From: Brucella tritici
GTDB lineage: Bacteria > Pseudomonadota > Alphaproteobacteria > Rhizobiales > Rhizobiaceae
Assembly: GCF_902825325.1 (NCBI RefSeq)
Contig: NZ_CADEAR010000003.1
Span: forward strand, 1-64,000
Length of the DNA: 64,000 nt
Direction: 5' to 3'
Made by a program: the position numbers and the translations under genes. This document shows positions 30,686 through 34,554 of the stretch, in pieces. The notes under the pieces are model-generated. The model had not been told where the DNA came from. It did no database searches and saw only the letters and a list, made by a program, of their open reading frames with translations. Each line of letters begins with the position of its first letter. Within the stretch, counting starts at the first letter, position 1.

Positions 30686-31477
30686 ATGAGCCAGCAGAAC
30701 GGCAATGCGGACCGCGTGGGCGCACAAGGTGGCATGGAGCATTCATTCGGCTTCAAGGCGGTGGACGAAAGCGAAAAGCAGGGGCTGGTCAACGACGTTT
30801 TCCATAAGGTCGCCAGCAAGTACGACGTGATGAACGATCTCATGTCGGCGGGTATGCACCGCGTCTGGAAAGATGCGATGATTGCATGGCTGGCACCGTC
30901 GAAGCGCCCCGGCTGGACCTCCCTCGACGTTGCAGGCGGCACCGGCGATATTGCTTTCCGTATTGTCGAGGCCTCAGGTCGTCAGGCCCATGTCACCATT
31001 CTCGATATCAATGGCTCGATGCTTGGCGTGGGGCGTGAACGGGCGATCAAGAAGGGCCTTGCCGACAATCTCGAATTTGTTGAAGCCAGTGCCGAAGAGT
31101 TGCCATTTGAAGATGCAAGCTTCGATGCTTACACGATTTCGTTCGGCATTCGCAATGTTCCCCATATCGACAAGGCGCTGTCCGAAGCCTATCGCGTGCT
31201 GAAGCCGGGCGGTCGTTTCCTCTGCCTCGAATTTTCAGAAGTTGAACTCCCGGTTCTCGACAAGGTCTACGACCAGTGGTCGTTCCACGCTATTCCGCGC
31301 ATCGGCAAGATGATTACAGGCGATGCCGATTCCTACAGCTATCTGGTTGAATCGATCCGCAAATTCCCCAAGCAGCAGGATTTTGCCGCGATGATCGAGA
31401 AGGCTGGTTTCGAGCGCGTGAGCTATCGCAATTTCACTGGCGGCATTGCCGCGCTGCATTCCGGCTGGAAGCTTTGA
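30686..31477 (+). CDS. ubiE: ubiquinone/menaquinone biosynthesis C-methyltransferase
   Basis: This 263-residue SAM-dependent methyltransferase carries out the C-methylation of the quinone ring. Motifs are [20 protein letters not shown], the SAM-binding [12 protein letters not shown] and the UbiE signature [22 protein letters not shown] region ([16 protein letters not shown]). The ubiB gene starts 43 nt downstream on the same strand. Confidence 0.96.
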
Positions 31478-31520
31478 TTGTGCCTGTGATGAATTGGGGT
31501 CAGGAACGGGGCATCGAGGC

Positions 31521-33104
31521 ATGAGCAATCTATCCGCCGCTTTCCGGTTGATGCGGGCCGGATGGATATTGACGCGCGAAGGCGTTATCAGCGCCTTGCC
31601 GGTGGAAGGGCTTTCCGGCCTCCCGGCGTTCGGGCACAAGATTGCAGGCATTCTGGCGCGTCCGCGCGCACGCCACATGCAGCGTTCCGAGCGCATGTCG
31701 CGAGCCATGAACAAGCTGGGTCCGTCCTATGTGAAGCTCGGCCAGTTTCTGGCGACGCGGCCTGATATTGTCGGTCGCGATGTTGCTGCCGATCTCGAAC
31801 TTTTGCAGGACAGGCTCGACTTCTTCCCGCAGGCCGACGCGGTTTCCGCTATCGAAGGGTCGCTTGGCCGCAAGATCGATGATCTTTACCTGCATTTCGA
31901 TGCACCGATAGCGGCAGCGTCGATGGCGCAGGTTCATCCAGCCGAAATCATGAAGGACGGGTCGCGCCAGAAAGTGGCGGTCAAGGTCATTCGTCCGGGC
32001 GTTCGCCACCGCTTTGCCCGCGACCTTGAAGGCTTCTATATGGTTGCGCGCATGCAGGAGCGTCACGTTCCCTTCACGCGCCGCCTGCGCCCGGTGCAGG
32101 TTGTCGAGACACTGCAGCAGACTACGCGTATCGAGATGGATCTCCGTCTGGAAGCGGCGGCACTTTCCGAGATCGCCGAGAACATCAAGGGCGATACGGG
32201 CTTCCGCGTTCCTAATGTCGATTGGGAACGTACAGGTCGCGATGTGCTGACGCTCGAATGGATCGACGGCATCAAGATGTCCGATGTTTCGGCGCTTGAA
32301 GCCGCGGGTTTCGATCTCAAGAAGCTTGCGGAAACGCTGATCCAATCCTTCCTGCGCCATACGCTGCGCGACGGCTTTTTCCATGCCGACATGCATCCGG
32401 GAAACCTGTTCGTCGATCATCAGGGGCTGATTGTTGCGGTTGATTTCGGTATCACCGGGCGGCTCAATAAGCAGCAGCGGCGCTTCCTTGCAGAAATTCT
32501 CTACGGCTTCATTACCCGCGACTACATGCGCGTGGCGGAAGTGCATTTCGAGGCAGGTTATGTGCCGCACACGCATGATGTGGCGAGCTTTGCGCAAGCC
32601 ATTCGCGCCATTGGCGAACCAATCCACGGCCAGCCTGCCGAAACTATTTCCATGGCCAAGCTTCTGACGCTGCTGTTCGAAGTGACCGAGCTTTTCGATA
32701 TGGAAACCCGGCCGGAACTTTTGATGCTCCAGAAAACAATGGTCGTCGTGGAAGGGGTATCGCGTACGCTCGATCCGCATTTCAATATGTGGAAAGCAGC
32801 GGAGCCAGTCGTCGGCGACTGGATCGCCAAGAATCTCGGGCCGCAAGGCATGCTTCTCGACGCGAAGGATAGCGCTTATTCGCTGCTGCATTTCACGCGA
32901 AAGACGCCGGAACTTATCGCACGTGTCGAGCGTGTTTCCGTTGCGCTGGACGACATGGCCGCCAAGGGCTTGCGTTTTGACGAGGCGACAGCGGAGGCTA
33001 TCGGTCGCGCCGAAGCCAAGTATTCGCGCTGGGGTCGCATCGCGCAAGTGGTGATTGCGATCTCGCTCGCAGCGATAGCGATCAAGCTATATCTTTGGCT
33101 CTAA
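31521..33104 (+). CDS. ubiB: ubiquinone biosynthesis ADCK-family protein UbiB
   Basis: This 527-residue atypical kinase-like ATPase is needed for ubiquinone synthesis. The KxGQ motif is in GPSYVKLGQFLATRPDIV, with an A-rich nucleotide loop (APIAAASMAQVH), HADMHPGNLF and the metal-binding VDFG. A C-terminal membrane helix (VVIAISLAAIAIKLYLWL) anchors it. ATG 31521 gives the family start; the frame is open to 31446, inside ubiE. It forms the usual alphaproteobacterial ubiE-ubiB-coaBC cluster. Confidence 0.95.
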   Translation: MSNLSAAFRLMRAGWILTREGVISALPVEGLSGLPAFGHKIAGILARPRARHMQRSERMSRAMNKLGPSYVKLGQFLATRPDIVGRDVAADLELLQDRLDFFPQADAVSAIEGSLGRKIDDLYLHFDAPIAAASMAQVHPAEIMKDGSRQKVAVKVIRPGVRHRFARDLEGFYMVARMQERHVPFTRRLRPVQVVETLQQTTRIEMDLRLEAAALSEIAENIKGDTGFRVPNVDWERTGRDVLTLEWIDGIKMSDVSALEAAGFDLKKLAETLIQSFLRHTLRDGFFHADMHPGNLFVDHQGLIVAVDFGITGRLNKQQRRFLAEILYGFITRDYMRVAEVHFEAGYVPHTHDVASFAQAIRAIGEPIHGQPAETISMAKLLTLLFEVTELFDMETRPELLMLQKTMVVVEGVSRTLDPHFNMWKAAEPVVGDWIAKNLGPQGMLLDAKDSAYSLLHFTRKTPELIARVERVSVALDDMAAKGLRFDEATAEAIGRAEAKYSRWGRIAQVVIAISLAAIAIKLYLWL

Positions 33105-33147
33105 GTCACTTTTAGGGTGACATCTACCTTCTAAAGTGATTTCAATG

Positions 33148-33174
33148 ATTGCACTTGTAACAAGCAGGTGCAAT
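33148..33174. promoter_or_regulatory. inverted repeat overlapping the coaBC leader
   Basis: ATTGCAC (33148-33154) is perfectly inverted as GTGCAAT (33168-33174), with CTTGTAACAAG, itself a palindrome, at 33154-33164 inside. It ends 3 nt before the coaBC start codon. Spaced inverted repeats of this form are the operators of FitA-type antitoxins, and the encoded protein starts with such a domain. Confidence 0.45.
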
Positions 33175-33177
33175 CAA

Positions 33178-34554
33178 ATGGCCAGCATTACTATCCGGAA
33201 TCTCGACGATGACGCCAAGGAACGGCTGCGTATAAGGGCAGCACAGAACGGGCGCTCCATGGAAGAGGAAGCGCGCATTCTGCTGGCCGGGCAGGATATA
33301 GCTCCACAGGCTGTTGCAGTGTCTCCCGGTGCAGTGGTTTCACTGGCCGGAAAACGCATTCTTCTTATCATCGGTGGTGGCATCGCCGCTTATAAGACGC
33401 CCGACCTCATCCGCCGCTTGCGTGAGCGCGGTGCACAGGTTCGCCCATTGATGACGGCGGCAGCGCAGCAATTCGTGACACCACTGACCATCGGTGCGGT
33501 TTCCGCCGATCATGTTTTCACCGATCTGTTTTCGCGCGAGGATGAGCAGGATGTCGGGCATATAAGGCTGGCGCGCGATGCGGACCTGATCGTCGTCGCG
33601 CCCGCGACTGCTGACCTGATGGCGAAGATGGCCAATGGGCTTGCCGATGATCTTGCGAGCGCGGTGTTGTTGGCCCGCAAAGTTCCAGTGCTTATTGCGC
33701 CTGCCATGAACCCGGCCATGTGGGAAAATCCCGCGACCAGACGCAACCGCCTGACGCTTGAAAAAGACGGCGTTCGTTTCATCGGCCCGGAGAAGGGCGA
33801 GATGGCGGAAAGCGGCGAGGCGGGAACGGGACGCATGAGCGAGCCGCTGGCGATTGTCGCGGCCATCGAGACCCTGCTCGCGCCGCAGGCAAAGCCGCTT
33901 GCGGGCAAAACCATTGTCATGACGTCCGGCCCCACGCACGAGCCGATTGATCCGGTTCGCTATATAGCCAATCGTTCGTCGGGCAAGCAGGGCCATGCTA
34001 TTGCGGCAGCGCTGGCGCGACTTGGCGCTACGGTGCATCTGGTGTCTGGTCCGGTCACGATCCCGGACCCCGAAGGCGTCGACGTCATTCATGTCGAGAC
34101 GGCACGTGAAATGCAGGGGGCTGTCGAGCGACATCTCCCCGCCGATGCGGCGGTGATGGTCGCGGCGGTTGCCGATTGGCGCACGGCCAATGAAGCCGGA
34201 CAGAAGATCAAGAAGAAGCCGGGTGAAAGCGCTCCGACGCTTGCCATGGTTGAGAACCCGGACATTCTGGCTGGTGTCGGCCATAGCGACAAGCGCCCCG
34301 GTCTTGTGGTGGGCTTTGCAGCGGAAACGCAGGACGTGGCTGAAAACGCGCTGCGCAAGCTTGAAAAGAAAGGTGCGGACTGGATCGTCGCTAACGATGT
34401 TTCGCATGCTCCGGATGGCAGCAGCGTCATGGGTGGCGACCGTAATCATGTCCGCATTCTAAGCCGGACCGGCATTGAGGAATGGCCGGAAATGAGCAAG
34501 GAACAAGTGGCTAAAAAGCTGGCAGCGAAGATTGCCGCCAGCCTTATGGGTTAG
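33178..34554 (+). CDS. coaBC: CoaBC (phosphopantothenoylcysteine synthetase/decarboxylase) with N-terminal ribbon-helix-helix domain
   Basis: This 458-residue protein makes 4'-phosphopantetheine on the way to coenzyme A. Residues 1-36 (MASITIRNLDDDAKERLRIR..GRSMEEEARILL) look like a FitA/VapB-type antitoxin DNA-binding domain. A linker (37-55) leads to the FMN-binding CoaC decarboxylase (56-230) with His128 in VGHIRLA and PAMNPAMW. The CoaB synthetase domain (about 240-455) has GPTHEPIDPVRYIANRSSGK. The residue matching E. coli CoaC Cys158 appears to be Ser212 (ESGEAGTGRM). ATG 33178 has GCAGGTG 8 nt upstream; no good internal start is seen near residue 53. Confidence 0.92.
   Translation: MASITIRNLDDDAKERLRIRAAQNGRSMEEEARILLAGQDIAPQAVAVSPGAVVSLAGKRILLIIGGGIAAYKTPDLIRRLRERGAQVRPLMTAAAQQFVTPLTIGAVSADHVFTDLFSREDEQDVGHIRLARDADLIVVAPATADLMAKMANGLADDLASAVLLARKVPVLIAPAMNPAMWENPATRRNRLTLEKDGVRFIGPEKGEMAESGEAGTGRMSEPLAIVAAIETLLAPQAKPLAGKTIVMTSGPTHEPIDPVRYIANRSSGKQGHAIAAALARLGATVHLVSGPVTIPDPEGVDVIHVETAREMQGAVERHLPADAAVMVAAVADWRTANEAGQKIKKKPGESAPTLAMVENPDILAGVGHSDKRPGLVVGFAAETQDVAENALRKLEKKGADWIVANDVSHAPDGSSVMGGDRNHVRILSRTGIEEWPEMSKEQVAKKLAAKIAASLMG

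Follow-up and report, generated by a model that had tools for sequence, protein, structure and literature searches.

Three kinds of described system come close to the gene treated here. PutA is a flavoenzyme that has an N-terminal ribbon-helix-helix (RHH) domain and acts as the repressor of its own gene (PMC5293562). In the toxin-antitoxin system FitA-FitB, the FitB toxins do not contact DNA but tether FitA dimers, and the complex occupies a 36-bp operator (PMC3920265). The enzyme CoaBC (Dfp) of coenzyme A (CoA) synthesis forms dodecamers in mycobacteria and is inhibited there by CoA thioesters (PMC7794376), and for the control of CoaBC expression we found no description in the literature searched. 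Here we analyse a coaBC gene of Brucella tritici that lies in the first 64,000 nucleotides of contig NZ_CADEAR010000003.1 (assembly GCF_902825325.1; this whole 64-kb stretch is called the window). Its product is a full CoaBC that carries a FitA-type RHH domain at the N-terminus, and upstream of the gene lies an array of eight-base motifs (octads). We consider it likely, with a probability of about 0.77, that the enzyme binds to these octads and acts on its own gene as a repressor.

A FitA-type RHH domain in front of a complete CoaBC

A sequence-only reading of this DNA had proposed that the first 36 or so residues of the protein form a FitA/VapB-type DNA-binding pattern, in frame with a full-length CoaBC after a short linker, and profile searches bear this out. 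Residues 2-37 match FitA-like_RHH (PF22513; E 5e-18, 65.2 bits against a Pfam gathering score of 27), and residues 56-452 match the CoaBC model TIGR00521 over model positions 1-391 of 392 (E 8e-122, 407 bits against an equivalog cut-off of 219.7). Both PF02441 and PF04127 were found, and by sequence both catalytic domains appear complete. This is the single CoaBC match in the window genome. An in-frame GTG lies upstream at 33136, yet the protein start that recurs in relatives, MAS-T-R, begins at the ATG. When the predicted RHH fold was searched with Foldseek, the E-values were weak, the domain being very short; a second structural aligner did not single out FitA and had PutA RHH chains among its top matches. 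The linker is modelled with a predicted local distance difference test score (pLDDT) below 50 at residues 42-53 of the full-length model.

The fusion is widespread in Hyphomicrobiales. In the genus, a match reaching residue 1 was found in 33 of 35 genomes, in two of these (G001 and G011) in broken frames; the two exceptions are G029, whose CoaBC has no RHH domain, and G006, a poor assembly without a match before residue 55. Searching proteins with residues 1-60 as query yielded 454 matches. All of the 120 matches listed from these have the RHH Pfam domain, and 119 have both CoaBC domains, the remaining one having the flavoprotein domain alone. Named carriers include Brucella/Ochrobactrum species, Falsochrobactrum, Phyllobacterium, Pseudochrobactrum, Paramesorhizobium, Hoeflea, Nitratireductor, Mesorhizobium and Zhengella. 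In family f35 of the order at least 16 genomes carry the fusion and two (G400 and G629) do not, in family f16 it was found in G579, among the matches listed, and the RHH reading is common to three families of Hyphomicrobiales. In a sample of the class (96 genomes, 70 with any match, the window genome included), no CoaBC match starting before residue 37 was found outside the order, and a fusion outside Hyphomicrobiales was rejected within this sample. The mapping across Hyphomicrobiales proposed in the sequence-only reading gave 33 of 35 genus genomes and many others of the order, with none seen outside it. The RHH-CoaBC domain combination is already present in precomputed Pfam annotation; no published account of it was found in a search judged by titles and the beginnings of abstracts, with subscription papers mostly outside its reach.

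Some lineages nested among the carriers, Brucella daejeonensis (L054/L111) and Paenochrobactrum (L066/L171 and L090), have neither the RHH domain nor the octad pair described below. One record (L068) is titled Bacillus subtilis strain SK6B4 and encodes a Pseudochrobactrum-like RHH-CoaBC, for which reason this contig looks mislabelled or contaminated.

An octad array between the upstream gene and the start codon

The 73-bp gap between the upstream ABC1/UbiB-type gene and the RHH-CoaBC gene holds three octads (Table 1). In the upstream DNA of relatives the octads follow the consensus TGNNNNCA, mostly as TGATTGCA or its complement, with a 9-bp spacing; apart from octads 1 and 2, the window contains no 9-bp TGNNNNCA pair. 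Octad 2 is also the left arm of an inverted repeat (33146-33157 / 33165-33176), and octad 3 ends one base before the start codon. The one exception to octad 2 in the window clade is a single mismatch in L052. Across 18 distinct sequences the octads were 99% conserved, as against a consensus of about 70% for the spacer between octads 2 and 3. The sequences for this comparison were chosen by octad 3 together with six of the bases in octad 2, which kept 20 of 21 (L043 is shifted by one base), so octad 1 is its sole free test.

The octads stand at about -41/-32/-9 in the Brucella group versus about -51/-42/-9 in Phyllobacterium, Paramesorhizobium and others, octad 3 being fixed at -9 while the pair shifts by about one helical turn. 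Among octad distances in the fused loci, 9 bp comes foremost (82 loci), followed by 32 bp (37) and 23 bp (34). In nine operons in which coaBC follows an antitoxin and a toxin gene, distances of 9 and 18 bp occur in all and 27 bp in seven.

The octad pair and the RHH domain occur together

We defined a strict pair as TG....CA.TG....CA within 150 bp upstream of the gene. In a first set of 141 loci, which excluded loci whose upstream DNA was shorter than 150 bp or identical to another, the pair was found in 82 of 97 fused loci, in 9/9 antitoxin-toxin-coaBC operons and in 0/35 coaBC loci without RHH, the latter coming from several families. In dinucleotide shuffles of the fused set it occurred in 0.5 of 97. 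With the criterion frozen beforehand, a held-out set of 36 loci (40 minus 4 duplicates; five operons were kept although their upstream DNA covered just 95-126 bp) gave 16/19 fused loci, 8/10 operons and 0/7 loci without RHH, these last from family f1 alone. Fisher tests, in which kinship is ignored, yielded p values of 1e-21 and 9e-5 for the first and held-out sets, respectively. A chance palindrome was ruled out because the pairs are far above the shuffles and absent from the loci without RHH.

The association was also followed on a tree of 124 out of 210 loci, obtained after near-copies had been thinned. Of its rows, 74 have the RHH domain and the pair, 16 the RHH domain without the pair, 34 neither, and 0 the pair without the RHH domain. 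Seven independent pairs of RHH-positive and RHH-negative loci could be placed on supported branches, and in these the octad pair agrees with the RHH domain in 5.9 (mean) and opposes it in 0 (median p 0.03).

When the genus was searched with the pattern TGATTKCAWTGATTGC, 35 hits were found in 35 genomes, 32 of them at coaBC. G029, with its CoaBC lacking RHH, had no hit, nor had G006. Among the three hits away from coaBC, two (G000 and G017) represent a single site within a coding frame, hit in both genomes, and a wider regulon was rejected on these counts. Looser patterns gave further hits in the window genome, with larger gaps or two mismatches (L118-L126, L230 and L231).

The octads are not confined to coaBC. 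We inspected 14 loci of free-standing antitoxins away from coaBC (11 of the 17 listed in the class-sample search, two from the genus search and one of the window genome) and found the strict pair upstream of six, among them five of the nine with the closest RHH. Three of the other four closest antitoxins have a pair with one mismatch, and L232, by reading, one with two. The sixth antitoxin with the strict pair is a distant one encoded by the window genome itself, with octads unlike the common ones. The octads are thus, to judge from these upstream regions, a property of the antitoxin family. The fitAB operator of Neisseria presumably has half-sites that resemble them as well.

Several points weigh against octad binding and autorepression. 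The octad rule was formed after the first set had been read, the Fisher p values are inflated by kinship, and the kinship-aware test rests on seven pairs of a quick tree with support from the Shimodaira-Hasegawa-like approximate likelihood ratio test (SH-aLRT) alone. The strict pair is absent in 15/97 and 3/19 fused loci and in 2/10 held-out operons, many loci without it having octads with one mismatch, and two fused loci of the Pseudochrobactrum type (L067 and L068) show no octads within 150 bp. In the genus, G034 has the RHH domain but no exact TGATTKCAWTGATTGC hit, and the third hit away from coaBC, present in G021 only (L228, about 2513-2535), is intergenic. No sigma-70-like promoter was called at 33000-33300, and residues 1-40 have low confidence in the full-length model (block pLDDT 47-71). 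As to the G021 hit, it lies between an apparent minus-strand start and a hairpin-like stretch and is possibly a second target or a chance occurrence.

Probable origin from an antitoxin-toxin-coaBC operon

In 19 distinct loci of relatives coaBC is the third gene after an RHH antitoxin and a PIN toxin gene (Table 1), an arrangement that would place coaBC expression under a toxin-antitoxin promoter. In seven of these loci toxin stop and coaBC start overlap by 4 nt, and in 12 the stop precedes the start by 9-25 nt. PIN domains were called with Pfam for six operon toxins and the toxin of L071, and for the rest by a profile built from those seven. The same profile found no PIN-type stretch in the 64-kb window, in line with the remark in the sequence-only reading that no PIN-domain gene is adjacent.

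Other loci look like intermediates between operon and fusion. In L071 a whole antitoxin-toxin pair stands in front of a fusion. In L212 an 85-residue antitoxin-like part, with RHH and tail, is in frame with CoaBC, and its supported sister L108 has the operon. Three Hoeflea fusions (L069, L070 and L075) have kept an antitoxin-like tail in the linker, whereas residues 37-55 of the window protein are by eye unlike antitoxin tails. Upstream of coaBC in L175 and L186, all that remains of a PIN toxin is its C-terminal end, which reads as the scar of a lost toxin-antitoxin module. Three further sister pairs (L141/L216, L145/L096 and L148/L149) give no support to the tail, since the fused linker and the antitoxin tail align poorly beyond the RHH domain. 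Seven fusions (L081, L088, L142, L148 and L181-L183) have a linker motif of their own (about QIExxLRxL), which may be the tail of another antitoxin or a separate helix.

On the quick tree the fused label changes 16 times, and at least 10 changes are forced by supported branches, which argues for repeated gains and losses; the direction of each is inferred. The best reading of these arrangements is that a toxin-antitoxin operon controlling coaBC would have repeatedly lost its toxin, the antitoxin becoming CoaBC's own DNA-binding domain.

The coordinates of the features are collected in Table 1. Around the RHH-CoaBC gene, ubiE comes before the ABC1/UbiB-type gene, and prfC is convergent behind RHH-CoaBC.

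Table 1. Features of the RHH-CoaBC locus in the window, and loci of relatives with the three-gene operon.
Feature	Position	Strand	Remarks
RHH-CoaBC gene	33178-34554	+	458 residues; stop at 34552-34554
FitA-type ribbon-helix-helix domain, codons 1-36	33178..33285	+	PF22513 E 5e-18; dN/dS 0.043 in the window clade
Linker, codons 37-55	33286..33342	+	fast-evolving; partly predicted disordered
CoaBC part	33343..34554	+	flavoprotein (CoaC) domain at residues 59-230, PF02441; DFP (CoaB) domain at 241-427, PF04127
ABC1/UbiB-type gene, upstream neighbour	31446..33104	+	PF03109 E 5e-73; longest frame given, start not settled
Putative operator octad 1, TGATTTCA	33137..33144	.	-41 to -34 from ATG; same place across the genus
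Putative operator octad 2, TGATTGCA	33146..33153	.	-32 to -25; exact in 20/21 window-clade loci
Putative operator octad 3, TGCAATCA	33169..33176	.	-9 to -2, inverted; exact in 21/21 window-clade loci
Antitoxin-PIN toxin-coaBC loci			L086, L089, L096, L100, L103 (Hoeflea alexandrii), L108, L149, L173, L184, L209, L213, L216-L220, L224-L226

Selection on the RHH domain and alternative explanations

The ratio of nonsynonymous to synonymous substitution rates (dN/dS, by Nei-Gojobori counts) for the RHH domain and the enzyme core was 0.043 and 0.064 in 18 window-clade sequences, 0.084 and 0.083 in 14 sequences of the Phyllobacterium clade, and 0.127 and 0.151 in 14 sequences of family f35. The linkers are looser, with ratios of the corresponding uncorrected proportions (pN/pS) of 0.42-0.92 across clades and 0.57 for the window linker (equal-length pairs). 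T5 and R7 are invariant in 71/71 fused representatives and S3 is kept in 64; the strand with T5 and R7 is the one that would face DNA. Constraint on the RHH codons is about equal to that on the enzyme, and the RHH is a protein domain under selection.

These values bear on a first alternative, in which toxin loss left the antitoxin promoter, start codon and RHH domain in front of coaBC, which needs them, while the RHH domain itself has no regulatory task. The origin by toxin deletion is well supported, the start codon does belong to the antitoxin part, and the RHH domain is dispensable in so far as CoaBC lacks it in B. daejeonensis (L054/L111) and Paenochrobactrum (L066 and L090). We nevertheless consider this explanation improbable, because the dN/dS of the RHH domain is about as low as that of the enzyme while the linkers drift, and because the octads are mostly kept with the RHH domain and absent where it is absent. 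The sequence-only reading had offered two possibilities, a metabolic enzyme that binds DNA, perhaps sensing FMN or pathway intermediates, and a captured antitoxin remnant whose toxin is lost. The first is favoured by the co-occurrence of RHH and octads; of the second, capture and toxin loss are well supported by the operons, antitoxin-like tails and toxin scars, but "remnant" is unsupported, as selection holds the RHH codons about as tightly as the enzyme and the octads are kept where the RHH domain is kept. The two possibilities belong together.

Less probable still is that the fused RHH domain, with its tail where kept, continues to neutralise PIN toxins made elsewhere and so ties an enzyme of an essential pathway to toxin immunity. 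The tail-like sequences in the three Hoeflea fusions and in L212, and the full antitoxin-toxin pair adjoining the fusion in L071, would suit such a role, but in the window protein the RHH domain is followed by a loose linker of only 19 residues, no PIN stretch was found in the window, and the RHH is the DNA-binding fold in FitA (PMC3920265).

That translation starts only near residues 52-55, the upstream frame not being made as protein, is the least credible explanation, for although a GTG codon is available at residue 52 of the window protein and a published flavoproteome table gives the B. ovis CoaBC its flavoprotein domain at 7-180, not 59-230 (PMC9045290), codon-level selection in the RHH domain is protein-like, the linker has an ATG in only 22/71 fused representatives, and the RHH reading is shared over three families of the order.

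From the same two ranges (7-180 versus 59-230), the B. ovis record would start about 52 residues later, and an annotated start so far downstream would omit the RHH domain (PMC9045290). CoaBC annotations that start at the flavoprotein domain would conceal it in general.

A possible mechanism and its significance

Autorepression by CoaBC could have arisen and could work as follows. In ancestral operons coaBC expression would have been governed by the toxin-antitoxin repressor. Loss of the toxin gene by deletion would then have joined the antitoxin RHH domain to CoaBC, several times over, and the tethering of RHH dimers would have passed from the toxin to the CoaBC oligomer as their new scaffold. 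One such oligomer might hold both the octad pair and the octad next to the start codon, and with rising CoaBC the octads would become occupied and its own transcription would fall. More tentatively, and with a good deal less confidence than in autorepression itself, we suggest that the antitoxin became a DNA-reading head, that the CoaBC oligomer replaced the toxin and that the CoA/acyl-CoA load tunes the grip on the promoter, which would make the enzyme a self-repressing CoA sensor in a large part of Hyphomicrobiales.

The RHH domain and the octads offer a concrete candidate repressor and operator for coaBC that are cheap to test. The loci also present stages on the way from a toxin-antitoxin module to a host regulator (the operon, the operon beside a fusion, a fusion with antitoxin-like tail, a trimmed linker and a toxin scar), and these bear on the question why chromosomal toxin-antitoxin modules persist.

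Comparison with known systems

With ordinary CoaBC (Dfp) the window protein shares two complete catalytic domains; it differs in its RHH domain, which stands in front of none of the CoaBC proteins seen outside Hyphomicrobiales. With FitAB/VapBC it shares the RHH family PF22513 and the same octads, which are found before free-standing antitoxins, and relatives have a PIN toxin gene between antitoxin and coaBC. The 36-bp FitA-FitB operator (PMC3920265) is as long as the four octad steps of 9 bp that L089 and L103 show. In contrast to these systems, the window has no toxin and no recognisable antitoxin tail, and its RHH domain is part of an enzyme of CoA synthesis. There is also a likeness in design to PutA: here too a DNA-binding domain is fused to an enzyme and operator-like sites, as recognised by their sequence, lie at the enzyme's own gene. 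PutA, however, is proline-catabolic and also represses putP, whereas the present enzyme makes CoA, its RHH domain comes from the FitA antitoxin family, and its own gene accounts for 32 of the 35 octad-pair hits in the genus. By analogy, the antitoxin-derived RHH domain of CoaBC is likely an autorepressor as in PutA.
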